From: Bacillota bacterium
GTDB lineage: Bacteria; Bacillota; Sulfobacillia; DUSP01; JBFMCS01
Direction: 5' to 3'
DNA: 43,147 nt
NCBI GenBank assembly: GCA_040754315.1
Contig: JBFMCS010000011.1
Location: 1 to 43,147, forward strand
Shown here: positions 1,039-35,540 of the stretch, in pieces
Layout: every line of letters begins with the position of its first letter
Position numbering within the stretch: position 1 is the first letter of the stretch
The notes under the pieces: model-generated
What the model saw: the letters and a program-made list of their open reading frames with translations, nothing else
Databases searched by the model: none
Told to the model about the DNA's origin: nothing
Program-made: the position numbers and the translations under genes

Positions 1039-2529
1039 ATGTCTGTTGCCACGATCGTGATTCTAGTGTTAATGATAGCCTACGCTGTGATCGTTCTTGG
1101 CATTGGCCAGTATGCCTACAGGCAGACAGGTAGCGGCAGGAGAGACTACTACGTGGCATCCGGGACGTTGAGCCCGTTCGTCATCTTCTTCACTTACCTT
1201 GCTACATACATAAGCACCTATGGGTTTGTAGGCCTGTCAGCGGTGTTCTACAGCTGGGGCATTGAGTGGGCCTGGTTCGAGGCCATGTACTACCCCACAC
1301 TCATCATCCCCCTTACCACACTCATAGGCCTGAGACTCTACAAGCTAGGGAAGATGCACAACTACGTAACCAACGCCGATCTTGTCGCGCACAGGCTCGG
1401 CTCCGAGGGCCCGGTCCGGGTGTTTTTCGGGTTGATCATGATCCTGTTCCCGTCCATCTTCTACGTGGGGATCCAGTTTGTTGCCATGTCGGCAATCCTC
1501 AGTGGTTTGACTGGCGGCCAGCTGTCCTACGGTTTCATGTTGCTGTTCTTTGCCTCTACCATGGCTCTATATGTCATCCTCGGTGGGATGCGCTCGGTTG
1601 CCTACACTGATGTGGTCCAGGGAATAACCGTCCTGCTCGCGCTTGGGCTGTCGGCCTTGCTGGTGTACACCCACTGGGGCGGGTTCGAGGAAATGTTTGT
1701 GGCGGCTGCTACCGGACCGCGAGCGTGGGCATTTGAGAGGACACTGCCCCCACACTACTTCTACCCGGCCATCCTGTTCATCGGCCCGGCCTGGGCAGGG
1801 CTGGTTCCCCACCTGTGGGTCAGGTTCTACGCGGCCAAGGATATCCGGGCTGTCCTCATGGCGGGACTGGGTGTTGGCGTAGGGGGCGCCCTGATGTATG
1901 CGCTTCTTCCCGTCTTGGTCGGAACAGCGCTCCTGGCGTTCTACCCCGAAGCACCTGAGGTGGCCGTGACGGAGCAGTATGTCTCCATGATGTTCAGCAG
2001 CTGGTTCGGGGCTGTACCTGCCGCCCTGCTGATGTTTGGCCTGGTGGCAGCAGGCAAGTCAACGGCCGACTCCATACTGCTGAACCTCTCCTCCATACTC
2101 CAGGTAGACATCCTGGAGAAGACCTTCAAGGTAAAGTGGCCGGAGCGTACCCTGGACCTTGTGGCTCGGCTGATGTGCATAGTGGTGGTAGGGATCGCGG
2201 CCATCGCCGCCGTCTCCCCCAAGCTGCCCATCGTCTCCATAGCCATCACCCTGATCTGGCCGGGCATCTCAGTGCTGGCGCTGCCTGTCCTGATAATGCT
2301 CTTCTGGCGGAGGGTTAACAGGCAGGGGGCCTTGGCTGGCCTGGTTTCCGGGTTTGTCTCCATGCTCCTCTGCATCTACGTGCTGTGGCCTGAGTGGCCC
2401 CACAACCCGTTCTACCTGTGGGAGGGCACCCTGCCCTGTGTCATGGGCATCGTGACCCTGGTGGTCGTAACCCTGCTTACGCCTCCTCCTCCCAAGGAGC
2501 TCATCGAGAGCTTCTACGGTAAGGGGTAA
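1039..2529 (+). CDS. Sodium:solute symporter (SSS family)
   Basis: The product is 496 residues, the usual length for the SSS/SLC5 family, with about 13 hydrophobic segments spread along the whole chain. The N-terminus carries the typical YYVASGTLSPF pattern after the first helix, and the middle has the GGMRSVAYTDVVQG signature that marks SSS transporters. These proteins couple inward sodium movement to uptake of an organic solute across the cytoplasmic membrane. The substrate cannot be read from sequence. The position two genes upstream of a dimethylamine methyltransferase suggests a methylated amine or amino acid, but this is inference. ATG start with a GAGGGG-type SD; a strong terminator follows at 2562. 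Confidence 0.92.
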   Translation: MSVATIVILVLMIAYAVIVLGIGQYAYRQTGSGRRDYYVASGTLSPFVIFFTYLATYISTYGFVGLSAVFYSWGIEWAWFEAMYYPTLIIPLTTLIGLRLYKLGKMHNYVTNADLVAHRLGSEGPVRVFFGLIMILFPSIFYVGIQFVAMSAILSGLTGGQLSYGFMLLFFASTMALYVILGGMRSVAYTDVVQGITVLLALGLSALLVYTHWGGFEEMFVAAATGPRAWAFERTLPPHYFYPAILFIGPAWAGLVPHLWVRFYAAKDIRAVLMAGLGVGVGGALMYALLPVLVGTALLAFYPEAPEVAVTEQYVSMMFSSWFGAVPAALLMFGLVAAGKSTADSILLNLSSILQVDILEKTFKVKWPERTLDLVARLMCIVVVGIAAIAAVSPKLPIVSIAITLIWPGISVLALPVLIMLFWRRVNRQGALAGLVSGFVSMLLCIYVLWPEWPHNPFYLWEGTLPCVMGIVTLVVVTLLTPPPPKELIESFYGKG

Positions 2530-5014: not shown

Positions 5015-5497
5015 GCTACGCTCCACTGGGGAGCTCGTGCAGGCCAAATCGCGGATCATTGATTCGACTTCAGGACAACTCACTTATGCCTGAGTCCGGC
5101 GACATCAGTCTTCCCCCCTTGTGGAGCCTGGACACACCCAGAGGCCTGCCGTTATTCACCAGCCTGTCTTGCTGGCGCAAGGCTCGGGCCTGATCTCATT
5201 TGGAGTTTGCTTTTCGAGTTGACTTGCGGCCATGGCTGCAGGCATGCCGCTAGGTTGGTTTTTCTCTCTGGGGGAGGACTGTTTATCTTCTCAAAGGCCC
5301 CAGGCACACCGTATCACCTCCCTGCTCCACACGCTGCCATGCATGCTGCCTTGGGCCATAGGATGGCTGGGAGGAGGAGTGATAGGGAAACTGGGATGGA
5401 CACCGAAACATGATAGGTATCCCATAATGGAGTCGAGGCAGGCAACAGGACACTACACCCGAAAGAGCCACACCAACTCGAAGAGGGAGGTAGATGT
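5015..5497. other. Long leader/intergenic region before mtbB
   Basis: About 480 bases with no credible gene. A stretch near 5145-5160 (CAGAGGCCTGCC) loosely resembles a B12 box, but the other conserved cobalamin-riboswitch elements are missing. CATAAT at 5424-5429 could be a -10 element, but no -35 stands at the right spacing. The SD GAGGGAGG (5483-5490) serves mtbB. Confidence 0.45.
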
Positions 5498-6889
5498 GTG
5501 GACAAGATCTTCTCGAGGCTGGGGGACGGCAGCGTTCTCTGGCTGAGCGAGGGCGAACTCAGGGCCGAGTTGGAGGACGGCACCAGTGATGCGGCAAGGA
5601 GGGGAAGGATCCCTCCCCTCACACAAGGGGAACTCGACAGCCTGTTCGAAATCTGCGCCTCTCCCCAGAAGGTGGTCACCATTGAATGGGGAAGGGAGGT
5701 GGTGCACTCTTTCGATGCAGGTACGCTGAAGTTTCCCCTCAGGGGTGGCGTGCCGGTGGACAGGCTGGGAACGATCCTTGCCCATGAGCGCGCGTTTTGC
5801 TCCGATACTATGGAGCTGGCCCATACGGACTATAGTTTCAAGCCCGTAAAGCAGATAATTCACGAAGAGCGCCAAGTCATGGAGCAGGTACAGCTGAATG
5901 CTACCATTCCCGTACTGTACGGTGCCATGCCTAACCTGGGCCTGTACACCAAGCCAGATGGACCCATCGACAACTGGACGGAGCTCCTCACCAAGGGCAA
6001 GATGGCCGAGGCCAGGGCCGCCCAGGAAGAGGCCTGCGATGCAGCTGTCAAGGACATCTGCTACGTGGCCAAGACAATGCACGAGGCCGGGGCTGACGGC
6101 ATCAACCTTGACACCGTGGGGTCATCAGGGGACGCTGATTTCCTGGCCAGCCTCAGGGCGATAGAGGAGCTCAAGGCCGAGTTCCCCGACATGGATATCG
6201 AGGTGGGAATGTCCGGGGAGTTCATCCTGGGAATGCACGGAGAGCTTGAATACGACGGCACCCGGCTGGCCGGCCTCTACCCTCACCAGCAGGTCAGGCT
6301 GGTGGAGAAGGCAGGGGCCACGGTATTCGGGCCTGTTGTGAACACTAACAGCAACCGCACCTTTCCCTGGAACCTGGCACGCGCCTGCACGTTTGTGAAG
6401 GCTTGCTCAGAGGTCTCTGGGATACCCATTCACCCCAATGCAGGCATGGGGGTAGGGGGGGTGTCTGTCTCCAGCACCGCCCCGCTGGATGTAATCTCCA
6501 GGGCATCAGTATCCTTGGTGGAGATAGGGAAGGCCGACGGGCTGTAGATTGGCCACGGTGACACCTTTGGGATGGCATTCCTCCATGAGTTGGCCACTGG
6601 CATGGGCGGCCTGCGTACTGCCGGAGATCTGGTAGCCCGCATCGTCATGTCAAAGGCCATGAGGATCAATGAGGCTAAAGCCTATGTAGCGAACAAGCTT
6701 GGGGTTTCCGTACTCGATCTCGCTGATTCCACCGCCATGCGCGAAATAAGGGAAGAACTCGACCTGGGTCACGTGCTGGCCCGGCCGGGCGCAGCCATAG
6801 GCATCGAGGCAAAAGCCCGGATTGCCAGGCTCCTGGACATAAGCATACGTTCGGTCGAGATGTCCAGGAGGAAGGCGGGCTGGGTCTAA
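5498..6889 (+). CDS. mtbB: Dimethylamine:corrinoid methyltransferase MtbB, pyrrolysine-containing
   Basis: Read from GTG 5498 (SD GAGGGAGG) to TAA 6889, this is one 463-residue protein if the in-frame TAG at codon 350 (6545-6547) is decoded. That matches the ~465-residue length of archaeal MtbB. The frame and the family similarity are unbroken across the TAG: HPNAGMGVGG and EIGKADGL precede it, IGHGDTFGMAF and LVARIVMSKAMRINEAK follow. In MtbB the amber codon near position 356 encodes pyrrolysine, the residue that presents the methylammonium to the Co(I) corrinoid protein. The enzyme transfers a methyl group from dimethylamine to its cognate corrinoid protein (MtbC), giving monomethylamine. 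Neither the corrinoid protein nor the pyl genes are in the window. If UAG only terminated, a 349-residue fragment lacking the active-site residue would result. Confidence 0.93.
6545..6547 (+). other. In-frame UAG, predicted pyrrolysine codon
   Basis: TAG at codon 350 of mtbB sits in the context ADGL-UAG-IGHGD. Downstream coding continues in the same frame for 113 residues with conserved MtbB sequence and normal codon use, so this is not a simple stop. Decoding would require tRNA-Pyl (CUA anticodon) and pyrrolysyl-tRNA synthetase encoded elsewhere. Confidence 0.9.
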
Positions 6890-6951: not shown

Positions 6952-7339
6952 GCATGTGCGCCCGGCGGGCATGGGCAGCAGCAACTATCCTGGCTTCCCC
7001 CTGCGCCAGCCTTCTGCAGAAAAACGGCAAAACCTGGTTAGCACAGTCATGACCTACCATTTCGCAAGAAGGGGATCCAGGCGGCAGGGTGAATAGAGTT
7101 ATCCCGTAAGGGCTTGTGCCGGTTGACGCTCCCAGGGCACAAACGCAGGCGCTCCATTCGCAGCGGCGAGTACATGACAAGAACCTAACAACCGTGGCAC
7201 AGGCCGTGTTGTCTCTGGAGTGCCCTGCCAGGGGCTTCCACAAAAGGAGGTGACCATCGCGCTAGGCACTTGCCAGATCCCCGGCACCGTCAACCTCTAC
7301 TGGCAGCAGCGATAACACTTGGGAAGGAGGTATACGGAT
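6952..7339. other. Intergenic region before BCCT transporter, with an orphan Shine-Dalgarno
   Basis: No recognised gene. A near-perfect SD (AAAAGGAGGTGA, 7242-7253) is followed by no ATG, GTG or TTG at proper spacing. An ATC five bases on opens a 19-codon frame (7256-7312) that ends with TAA at 7313-7315, just before the transporter's own SD (GGAAGGAGG). The start GTG 7250 within the SD itself gives a 21-codon version. It may be a leader peptide or chance. Confidence 0.35.
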
Positions 7340-8884
7340 ATGGAAAACAGATCTCAGATCGATCCGTACATATTCTGGCCCGCCCTTATCGTTATCGTAG
7401 GGGTCTCCACGGCGCTAGCGCTGGCCCCTGGTCCGGGAGGCCAACTGGTCAACGCAGCCCTAGCCTGGATCACCTATAAGCTCGACTGGCTCTACATGAT
7501 CGGTGCGTTCATGGCCTTCCTGTTCCTCGTGTACGCAGCTGTAGGCCCGTGGGGCAATATCAAGATGGGTGGTCCCGATGACAAACCCGAGTTCTCCACA
7601 CTCAGCTGGATAGCCATGCTCTTCTGCGCCGGCATCGGCTCAAGCCTGATCTACTGGGCCATCGCGGAGCCCTTGTACTACATGCAGTGGCCGCCCTTCG
7701 GGGCAGAGCCCTTCAGCGCTGACGCCGCTGGCTGGGCCGTCACCTACGGCATGTATCACTGGGGGTTTATTGCCTGGGCCCTGTACTGCATACCCGCTCT
7801 CCCCATAGCCTACGCGGTATATGTCCGCAAGGACCCGCACCTCAGGGCGAGCACAGCCTGCCGCGGCATCCTCGGGGATATGGTGGATGGCTGGGTAGGT
7901 AAGGTCATCGACGTATGCGTCATGTTCGGCCTGGTAGGTGGCGTCGGGACATCCTTGGGGTTGAACGTACCCATGATCTCCGCAGCCATGAGCAAGATCT
8001 TCGGGGTGCCGGAGTCCTTCGGGCTCAACGTTATCATCCTGATCATCTGGACCTGCATCTTCGGTGCCAGCGTCTACCTTGGACTCTACAAAGGTATCAA
8101 GGTCCTCAGTGATATCAATGTGTACGTGGCTCTTGTTCTCCTTGCCTTCGTACTCTTTGCGGGGCCCACCTTCTTCATCCTCTCGCATTTCTCTGAGAGC
8201 CTTAGCTACCTGTTCCAGAACTGGTTCAGGATGAGCCTCTGGACAGATCCAGTGGCCAAGGGAGGCTTCCCCCAGGGCTGGACCGTATTCTACTGGGCCT
8301 GGTGGATCGCATACGCCGTGTACATGGGCCTCTTCGTGGCCCGTATCTCCAAAGGGCGCACCATTCGCGAGCTGGTCATGGCTGAATGCTTCTGGGGAAC
8401 CCTGGGGTGCTGGGCCTACTTCGCGGTATTCGGTGGCTACACCGTGCACCTGGAGGTCAACGGCATCATCCCGCTTACCAAGGTCCTGTCGGAAAAGGGA
8501 GGCCCTGCTGCCATTGTGGAGGCGATCTCGGCTCTGCCAGGCAGTGTGATAATCCTGCCTGTCTTCGTCGTTGTGGCCTTTATTTTCCTGGCAACCACGC
8601 TAGACTCGTCCGCGTACACCCTGGCGTCCATCGCCACTAAGACCCTCCGTGGCGATGAGCAGCCAGCACGCTGGGTTCGCGTCGTATGGGCGGCAGCCCT
8701 GGCGGCTGTGGGTGTGGCAGTGCTGGCCATCGGAGGACTCAGTGCCATCCAGACATCCTCGGTAATTGCGTCATTACCCCTGATTATAGTGATCTTCCTC
8801 ATGGTGCTATCCTTCATGAGATGGGTCAAGGAAGACTTCCCTGACCTAGGGGGAAAGCCTCAGAGCGTCGACTACAAGGAATAG
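7340..8884 (+). CDS. BCCT-family betaine/carnitine/choline-type transporter
   Basis: The product is 514 residues with about 12 membrane segments and the BCCT signature around residues 310-345 (FYWAWWIAYAVYMGLFVARIS, with KGRTIREL following). That segment carries the tryptophans of the trimethylammonium-binding box. The family imports quaternary or methylated ammonium compounds, driven by sodium or protons or by exchange. The open frame reaches back to TTG 7319, but the SD GGAAGGAGG lies inside it, so ATG 7340 is the start. It stands 450 bases after mtbB on the same strand; in methylamine-using anaerobes such transporters commonly accompany methyltransferases, so supply of a methylated amine is a reasonable inference. 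The gene ends in TAG, followed by a strong hairpin, so here UAG acts as a stop. Confidence 0.92.
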   Translation: MENRSQIDPYIFWPALIVIVGVSTALALAPGPGGQLVNAALAWITYKLDWLYMIGAFMAFLFLVYAAVGPWGNIKMGGPDDKPEFSTLSWIAMLFCAGIGSSLIYWAIAEPLYYMQWPPFGAEPFSADAAGWAVTYGMYHWGFIAWALYCIPALPIAYAVYVRKDPHLRASTACRGILGDMVDGWVGKVIDVCVMFGLVGGVGTSLGLNVPMISAAMSKIFGVPESFGLNVIILIIWTCIFGASVYLGLYKGIKVLSDINVYVALVLLAFVLFAGPTFFILSHFSESLSYLFQNWFRMSLWTDPVAKGGFPQGWTVFYWAWWIAYAVYMGLFVARISKGRTIRELVMAECFWGTLGCWAYFAVFGGYTVHLEVNGIIPLTKVLSEKGGPAAIVEAISALPGSVIILPVFVVVAFIFLATTLDSSAYTLASIATKTLRGDEQPARWVRVVWAAALAAVGVAVLAIGGLSAIQTSSVIASLPLIIVIFLMVLSFMRWVKEDFPDLGGKPQSVDYKE

Positions 8885-15648: not shown

Positions 15649-16458
15649 CTATCCCTTGGCACTCTTTACTAGGTAGTCCTCAAGATCCTGCTCCTGGACC
15701 CTCCAGAGCCGTCCTACCTTGACTCCGCTAAGCAGACCCCTCCGCAGGTAGTCCATGACGGTGAGGCGGCTAATCTTCAACCTATCCGCCACCTGTTCTG
15801 GGGTCATCAGGGCCCCGCGGTCATGGAGCCCGGCAATTGGGCCTTCCCTCCGGTGGGGCACCGGCAGGTCCATCTCTCCTGCAGTCTTACCTTGTGCCAG
15901 CATACCGGCGCGTTTCCTCTCTCTTGGGATACCGGTGGCGGAAGGCGGTACCGGTTCCTCCGATCCTGCCCGGGCAGGATCGCCCTCATCCGGTGATATC
16001 CATTCCAGTTCAGGACCACCGACCGGTTCAGGGCATTGCTGTGTGCCTGCGCCGGGCGCGACAACAACCTGTTCCCACCGGGAGATCCTCTCCAAGAGGT
16101 CCAGCGTGAGCGCGCCCGCCTCAGTGGTGGAGTCCAGGCGCTCCTCAAGACTCACCAGGGAGACCTTGCTCTCCCTGAAGAGCCAGAGCAGGCGATGCAG
16201 GTCGGATACACACCGGGTGAGACGATCCAGGCCAGAGACGAGGACCACATCTACGGCACCTTCCTTAACCCTTCTCAGGAGCCGGTGCAGGCCAGGGCGT
16301 TCCAGATTACGAGCCCCAAAGCCCTTGTCGGACTCAAAGGCCACCACGTTCCAGCCCCTCCGGCCTGCCACGTCCCTGAGCGCCTCCTCCTGTGCCCTCA
16401 GGTCCAAGGTTTCGGCCTCATCCAGTGCCGCGACCCTGGCGTACACAACGGCCCTCAC
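15649..16458 (-). CDS. Serine recombinase-like protein fused to excisionase-type HTH, nucleophile missing
   Basis: The product is 269 residues. Residues 1-135 are a resolvase/invertase N-terminal domain: VVYARVAALDEAETLDL near the start, then SGLDRLTR, which supplies the two active-site arginines. The position of the catalytic serine (Ser10 of gamma-delta resolvase, YARVS) is alanine here (codon GCG), and the next residue is also alanine, so strand cleavage should be impossible. A proline-rich linker follows, and residues ~217-265 form a MerR/excisionase-type winged helix (MTPEQVADRLKISRLTVMDYLRRG then KVGRLWRV). This is the reverse domain order of IS607-type TnpA. A likely role is sequence-specific DNA binding with dimerisation, perhaps regulation; this is inference. 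GTG start with AAGGAGGG SD; ends in TAG. Confidence 0.8.
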   Translation of the reverse strand: MRAVVYARVAALDEAETLDLRAQEEALRDVAGRRGWNVVAFESDKGFGARNLERPGLHRLLRRVKEGAVDVVLVSGLDRLTRCVSDLHRLLWLFRESKVSLVSLEERLDSTTEAGALTLDLLERISRWEQVVVAPGAGTQQCPEPVGGPELEWISPDEGDPARAGSEEPVPPSATGIPRERKRAGMLAQGKTAGEMDLPVPHRREGPIAGLHDRGALMTPEQVADRLKISRLTVMDYLRRGLLSGVKVGRLWRVQEQDLEDYLVKSAKG

Positions 16459-33716: not shown

Positions 33717-34492
33717 CCAATGACGATGGCATATACGCCCCGGGCCTCTCTGCGATGAGGGCTGCTCTGGAGGCTCAGGGGGACCTTGAGGTATTCGTCA
33801 TTGCCCCTGACAGGGAGAGAAGCGCGTGCGGCCACGCCATTACCATGCACAAGCCCCTCATGGTAGAGCAGGTGCCACTACCCGATGGTAAGAGCCCCGG
33901 CTACCTGGTGGCAGGCACACCAGCCGATTGTGTGAAGCTCGGGGTTGAGGCGCTGCTTTCCACGGCCCCGGACCTCGTCATCTCAGGGATTAACCGTGGC
34001 CAGAACCTGGGCACGGACGTGTTCTACTCCGGCACCGTCTCCGCTGCAATCGAAGGTGCCATCCTCGGGATCCCCTCCATAGCCATATCCCTAGCTGGCT
34101 GGGAGGACCCGGACTACTCCCTGGCAGCCTCCTTCGGCAGCCACCTTGCCCGGAGGGTGCTGGAGAGGGGCCTTCCTCCTTCGACCCTTCTCAACGTCAA
34201 CGTTCCTGCCCGGGAGCGGTCTGAGATCACCGGTGTCTGCGTGACCAGGCTGGGAGTGCTCCGCTATGTCAACGTCTTCGACAAGAGGGTCGACCCCAGG
34301 GGGCGGATCTACTACTGGATGGCCGGTCAGGTCGATGAAGGCAGTGAAGAGGGCACGGATGACTGGGCCATTAAGCAGAACATGGTCTCGGTCACCCCGG
34401 TGCAATTGGACCTTACTGCTCACAAGACCATGAAATACCTGGAGGGCTGGGACCTCAGTACCCATGAGGAGAGGGAGGATAGGGGTGTCTGA
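33701..34492 (+). CDS. surE: 5'/3'-nucleotidase SurE
   Basis: The product is 263 residues, beginning LALLTNDDGIYAPG with the metal-binding Asp-Asp pair. It continues with APDRERSACGHAIT, VAGTPADCVKLG and ISGINRGQNLGTDVFYSGTVSAAIEGA, all SurE hallmarks. It is a metal-dependent phosphatase acting on nucleoside monophosphates, related to stress survival. TTG start inside the 3' end of dinG, with GAGGAGG upstream at 33687-33693, indicates translational coupling. Confidence 0.95.
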   Translation: MLALLTNDDGIYAPGLSAMRAALEAQGDLEVFVIAPDRERSACGHAITMHKPLMVEQVPLPDGKSPGYLVAGTPADCVKLGVEALLSTAPDLVISGINRGQNLGTDVFYSGTVSAAIEGAILGIPSIAISLAGWEDPDYSLAASFGSHLARRVLERGLPPSTLLNVNVPARERSEITGVCVTRLGVLRYVNVFDKRVDPRGRIYYWMAGQVDEGSEEGTDDWAIKQNMVSVTPVQLDLTAHKTMKYLEGWDLSTHEEREDRGV

Positions 34493-35540
34493 GGTTTGCC
34501 TCATCTACCACCATGACTACCTGGAACACAGGACCGGGGACGGTCACCTGGAAGCCCCCGGGCGCCTGCGGGCCATCCTCGATCTCCTTGACAGGGAGGG
34601 GGTTCTCTCACGGCTGCACGTGGCTAAGCCAAGGGAGGCCACGCTAGAGGAACTGTGCCTTGCCCATTCCCCGGGATACGTGGAAGTACTCAGGGCATTC
34701 GGGGATTCAGGAGGCGGCTACTTGGACCCTGATACCTTCATGAGCCCAGGGTCCTTCAGGGCTGCCTCCCTTGGGGCAGGGGGTACCATTGAAGCAGTGG
34801 AAGCCTGCCTAGCCGGCCTGTACCCCTCAACCTTCGTCCTAGCTAGACCCCCTGGGCACCACGCCAGCCGGTCCCAGGCCACGGGGTTTTGCCTGTTTAA
34901 CAACGTTGTGGTAGGTGCCCTTCACGCCCTCAGGCACCCCGGGATAAGAAGGGTTCTGGTGATAGACTGGGACCTCCATCACGGGAACGGCACTGAGAGC
35001 CTCCTGTATCAGCGCCAGGATGTCCTCTACTTCTCCGTTCACCAGAGCCCATGCTACCCAGGGACGGGTTCCCTGCAGGACCTGGGAGATGGGGAGGGGC
35101 TGGGATACAATCTCAACGTACCCCTCCCAGGGGGCGTGGGAGATCGCGGCTATGACATGGTGTTCCAGGAGATCTTGATGCCCGTCGCCCTGCGATACCA
35201 ACCTGACCTGGTGATGGTATCCGCCGGCCAGGATTGCCATCACGCAGACCCGCTGGGCGGCATGATGCTGACCACCCACGGATTTCACGGCATGGCCCGC
35301 CAGGCCAGGGAGATAGCCAGGGAGTGTGCCGCGGGGAGGATTGTCCTTTGCCTTGAGGGCGGCTACCATCTTGAGGCGTTGTCCCATAGTGTCCTGGCCA
35401 TCATTGACGCCTTGGGAGACCTCGGCCTTGATGTGACCGATCCCCTGGGCGACCCTGGAGAGACCCCTGTGGAGAGGATCCGGGACAGGCTCGCTCAAGT
35501 CCGTAATGTGATGTCACCCCACTGGCAGTGCCTGGCATGA
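34485..35540 (+). CDS. Histone deacetylase family (AcuC/acetylpolyamine amidohydrolase-like) protein
   Basis: The product is 351 residues from GTG 34485, which has GGGAGGAT upstream; the longer frame from ATG 34464 would include the SD. Motifs: LARPPGHHAS (active-site His pair), VIDWDLHHGNGT (zinc ligands Asp and His), VSAGQDCHHADPLGG (second zinc Asp) and CLEGGYHLEAL. Family members hydrolyse acetyl-lysine or acetylpolyamine amides. The presence of speD and a diamine-type aminotransferase in the window makes acetylpolyamine a candidate substrate, but acetoin-utilisation type deacylases are equally possible. Confidence 0.92.
   Translation: MSEVCLIYHHDYLEHRTGDGHLEAPGRLRAILDLLDREGVLSRLHVAKPREATLEELCLAHSPGYVEVLRAFGDSGGGYLDPDTFMSPGSFRAASLGAGGTIEAVEACLAGLYPSTFVLARPPGHHASRSQATGFCLFNNVVVGALHALRHPGIRRVLVIDWDLHHGNGTESLLYQRQDVLYFSVHQSPCYPGTGSLQDLGDGEGLGYNLNVPLPGGVGDRGYDMVFQEILMPVALRYQPDLVMVSAGQDCHHADPLGGMMLTTHGFHGMARQAREIARECAAGRIVLCLEGGYHLEALSHSVLAIIDALGDLGLDVTDPLGDPGETPVERIRDRLAQVRNVMSPHWQCLA

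Follow-up and report, generated by a model that had tools for sequence, protein, structure and literature searches.

An older statement held the dimethylamine methyltransferase gene mtbB to be almost exclusive to Methanosarcinales (PMC3941956). Pyrrolysine (Pyl)-containing MtbB has already been published from the bacterium Candidatus Formimonas warabiya DCMF (PMC6778437) and from sediment Deltaproteobacteria (PMC8318568), and the bacterial decoding genes have a published order, pylTScBCDSn (PMC3941956). Bacteria that use Pyl have been proposed to manage UAG stop codons by regulation, not by avoidance; this is said of the group of Acetohalobium arabaticum, another bacterial Pyl user, and substrate-dependent regulation is reported there (PMC3941956). 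The share of genes ending in UAG is given as under 6% in Pyl-using archaea and as 21% in Sifarchaeia, which are said to resemble Pyl-using bacteria (PMC9723677).

Here, we report a further member of the known bacterial Pyl-MtbB group, encoded in a 43,147-nucleotide stretch of DNA (the window, contig C11 of a Bacillota assembly). We put at about 85% the probability that the gene is a genuine mtbB in which a pyl cassette elsewhere in the genome inserts pyrrolysine at codon 350, yielding a full-length enzyme that acts on dimethylamine. With Methanosarcina-type MtbB the window gene shares a full-length family match above cut-offs, a single in-frame UAG and a similar length; it differs in lying in a bacterial host with a split PylSc/PylSn synthetase and in probably feeding the Wood-Ljungdahl pathway instead of methanogenesis. 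Strain DCMF resembles the host in having several TAG-bearing mtbB genes (L058, L063, L078, L079, and L096), a complete pyl cassette, many MttB-family genes, and a BCCT transporter near L058, while its MtbB proteins are 56-61% identical to the window copy. The Deltaproteobacteria likewise carry an in-frame UAG in a dimethylamine methyltransferase gene (PMC8318568), but belong to a different phylum, and their MtbB sequences lie across the main division of the MtbB tree from the window copy.

The frame described by the initial annotation, 463 codons with one TAG at codon 350, was borne out by translation and by both family models (Table 1). It opens with GTG, closes with TAA, and contains no other stop and no frameshift. 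With the TAG read as a residue, PF09505 spans residues 6-458 (profile positions 5-462, 632 bits), and the protein scores 526 bits against the NCBIfam equivalog TIGR02368, for which the cut-off is 369. By sequence, then, this is a genuine bacterial mtbB, of a kind that ordinary annotation would cut into pieces. The Rfam match to PYLIS_2 (mtbB) begins exactly on the TAG and is the lowest-scoring among those of the four genomic mtbB genes; since the PYLIS_2 model itself represents conserved mtbB sequence, the match is no independent proof of recoding.

Table 1. Features of the window around and upstream of the mtbB gene
Feature	Coordinates	Strand	Basis and remarks
mtbB, [dimethylamine--corrinoid protein] Co-methyltransferase	5498..6889	+	463 aa with UAG as pyrrolysine; PF09505, TIGR02368
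In-frame TAG, codon 350, predicted pyrrolysine	6545..6547	+	translation, alignment column, and model
Shine-Dalgarno-like GGGAGG, about 6 nt 5' of GTG	5486..5491	+	sequence inspection
PYLIS_2-like region (Rfam RF02509), 3' of UAG	6545..6644	+	56.8 bits, gathering score 36
BCCT-family transporter, TAG-terminated	7319..8884	+	profile match; BCCT near mtbB in L049, L052, L053, L058, and L088
Sodium:solute symporter	1039..2529	+	profile match; L088 has a homologue (70% identity) next to its mtbB

Relatives were drawn from bacterial and archaeal genomes, one per species; the best 80 of 268 encoding stretches were retained and aligned with the four copies of the host genome. The residue-level comparison covers bacterial relatives; for archaeal MtbB, the Pfam and NCBIfam family models and a Methanosarcina acetivorans control were used. 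All 84 bacterial MtbB sequences in this set carry the TAG at one shared alignment position, and the residues neighboring the Pyl site are conserved throughout the family. The window copy forms a fully supported clade (100/100) with L049, L050, and L051, and its identity to relatives is about the same on either side of the TAG: 77% before and 74% after relative to L049, 77% and 76% relative to L050. A true nonsense mutation that split mtbB into a two-part pseudogene would agree with the interrupted frame and with the lack of a neighboring mtbC, but neither a pseudogene nor a chance stop would be expected to give an invariant TAG column with equal identity on both sides. Together with the absence of further lesions and the presence of a full pyl cassette, this led us to reject the pseudogene reading as highly improbable. 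The relatives also bear on the view, taken over by the initial annotation, that bacterial pyrrolysine use is rare and mostly reported for MttB: with 268 stretches encoding relatives, a TAG in all 80 of those retained, and the two publications cited above (PMC6778437, PMC8318568), that view is dated, and the near-exclusivity of mtbB to Methanosarcinales is outdated by the same count. Within the host's own class, MtbB occurs in 3 of 154 genomes and PylSn in the same three, which include Clostridia bacterium AS04akNAM_48 (G003, with L067) and Candidatus Acetocimmeria pyornia (G143, with L107), so that predicted Pyl-dependent dimethylamine enzymes appear in an otherwise uncharacterized bacterial lineage.

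A search of the assembly (2.92 Mb in 65 contigs, with a stated completeness of 100% and contamination of 3.6%) recovered every component of the decoding machinery. On contig C43 the order is pylT-pylSc-pylB-pylC-pylD-pylSn, in agreement with the published bacterial arrangement, followed by a second TAG-bearing mtbB. The tRNA-Pyl has the anticodon CUA and its sequence folds; both halves of the split synthetase exceed curated cut-offs, as do PylB, PylC, and PylD (TIGR03910, TIGR03909, and TIGR03911, respectively). The window and the cassette lie on separate contigs and are thus joined by binning; the GC content is 0.603 both in the window and across the sampled genome. The earlier proposal that this organism reads UAG as pyrrolysine is accordingly strengthened, at the level of sequence, by the complete cassette and the TAG in all 84 MtbB sequences, and residue 350 of the window protein is predicted to be pyrrolysine. 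The genome holds four mtbB genes with one TAG apiece, the three paralogues being 52-56% identical to the window copy, and two mttB genes that bear a TAG.

UAG also serves as an ordinary stop codon in this genome. It terminates 141 of 368 genes (38%) in a simple codon-score gene call over about 548 kb, a figure subject to home-made gene calls, partial genome coverage (loci L006-L008 and L129-L151 plus the window), and GC effects; a few of the 141 are Pyl genes truncated at their sense UAG. Because UAG is so common a stop and release factor 1 (RF1) is encoded, termination must compete with insertion at codon 350. Depletion of UAG stops relative to G004, a member of the same order with neither MtbB nor PylSn, was not seen (38% in the host, 25% in G004), and the share in the Pyl-positive G003 is 26%, although GC content differs between the genomes and the samples are small. 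Nor did back-up in-frame stops appear as a safeguard: the next TAA or TGA follows UAG at a median of 47 codons and UGA at a median of 19, in a comparison of medians only. It is conceivable, though we think it unlikely, that UAG acts in parallel as a leading stop and as the pyrrolysine codon of six genes, the two roles being told apart by local context and not just by switching off pyl. With its high load of UAG stops and full pyl cassette, this group would be useful for studying how termination is separated from pyrrolysine insertion.

In the mtbB on contig C52 (L008:9513-10892), UAG is both the sense (Pyl) codon and the terminator, and reading the latter as Pyl would fuse the protein in frame to the product of the following MttB-like gene. 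Its four closest relatives (L083, L090, L103, and L109) likewise terminate with UAG, which in three of the four merges into a GGAGG; overlap with a ribosome-binding site may therefore explain the UAG ends of C52-type mtbB.

An AlphaFold2 model of the window MtbB, built on 42 aligned proteins from the window and genome, has a TIM-barrel fold with a pLDDT of 94.7 and places residue 350 on a predicted strand (348-351). The closest VIA-align neighbors, all TIM barrels with Z of about 16-18, are cobalamin-dependent methionine synthases (MetH), the methyltransferase 4ay8 from Methanosarcina mazei, and enzymes of the betaine-homocysteine methyltransferase type. The best Foldseek matches are general TIM barrels, MtmB and MttB structures being absent among the matches listed, and a PDB sequence search with MtbB gave no solved relative. 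The predicted model fits a corrinoid methyltransferase, a fold by which the substrate is not proven. It also bears on the idea that the active form of the protein is the 349-residue product of termination at the UAG, with readthrough as a side effect. The frequency of UAG stops and the presence of RF1 would suit such a product, but the 113 residues beyond the TAG are as conserved as the remainder and share a single, confidently modeled fold with it, and we give this idea next to no credence.

In the favored interpretation, that of a full-length Pyl-containing dimethylamine methyltransferase, the expressed cassette would convert lysine to pyrrolysine through PylB, PylC, and PylD, and PylSc/PylSn would charge tRNA-Pyl(CUA). 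Insertion at codon 350 would complete a 463-residue TIM-barrel enzyme in which, by analogy with archaeal MtbB, pyrrolysine binds and activates dimethylamine, and the methyl group would pass to an MtbC-type corrinoid protein encoded elsewhere in the genome and on to the Wood-Ljungdahl pathway. The assembly contains candidates for these later steps. The search for mtbC proposed in the initial annotation gave MtbC-type genes: five of 17 corrinoid-protein matches exceed the TIGR02370 cut-off. Two RACo/RamA-type proteins and CdhC/AcsB (acetyl-CoA synthase) are also encoded. For mtbA, the other gene named there, no protein of the genome reached the cut-off of the MtaA/CmuA (MtbA-type) model. These genes suggest that methyl groups of dimethylamine enter the Wood-Ljungdahl pathway through a corrinoid protein, and we infer from sequence that dimethylamine is the probable substrate of the window MtbB and may support growth. 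The enzyme might instead be a Pyl-containing family member whose main substrate is a different secondary or quaternary amine, as could be suspected from the divergence of the four paralogues and from the position of the window copy, in its own clade with L049-L051 and beside a BCCT transporter. The TIGR02368 equivalog score, far above cut-off, and the family-wide conservation of the Pyl-site surroundings make this improbable.

In many relatives mtbC lies immediately 3' of mtbB, and in L049, L052, L053, and L058 it is followed by an MttB-like gene, with a BCCT transporter farther along. The window mtbB differs in having no adjacent mtbC: the BCCT gene comes directly after it, and remnants of mtbC or of an MttB-like gene were not found within the window. 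The transporter could possibly take up a methylated amine or betaine. The upstream sodium:solute symporter is a possible partner transporter, by a weak link. The spore-forming habit given in the initial annotation found no support among the window proteins scanned, where no sporulation family reached its cut-off. The window also encodes a histone deacetylase-like protein (34464-35540, + strand; PF00850, 310 bits) and, at 15649-16458 (- strand), a protein that has both an excisionase-type HTH and the N-terminal domain of a serine recombinase.

About 26 near-full-length MttB-family genes occur among 30 genomic matches, with a TAG in only two, and numerous members are grouped on C52 alongside corrinoid proteins. 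The MttB that adjoins the pyl cassette on C43 (L006:7346-8926, - strand) scores above the TMA-methyltransferase equivalog cut-off and has valine at the pyrrolysine position (LPSWVGGGVSDSK); L058 of Ca. Formimonas warabiya contains a near-identical motif. An MtmB-family protein without UAG (L048, C23:70475-71830) has methionine aligned to the Pyl of Methanosarcina MtmB. A phrase search of the literature for MtmB "lacking pyrrolysine" returned nothing; a non-Pyl MtmB-family protein of DCMF is strongly induced by dichloromethane (PMC9768040). Finally, tandem glycine riboswitch aptamers lie about 2.3 kb 3' of the mtbB on contig C56 (L007:6114-6291, - strand).
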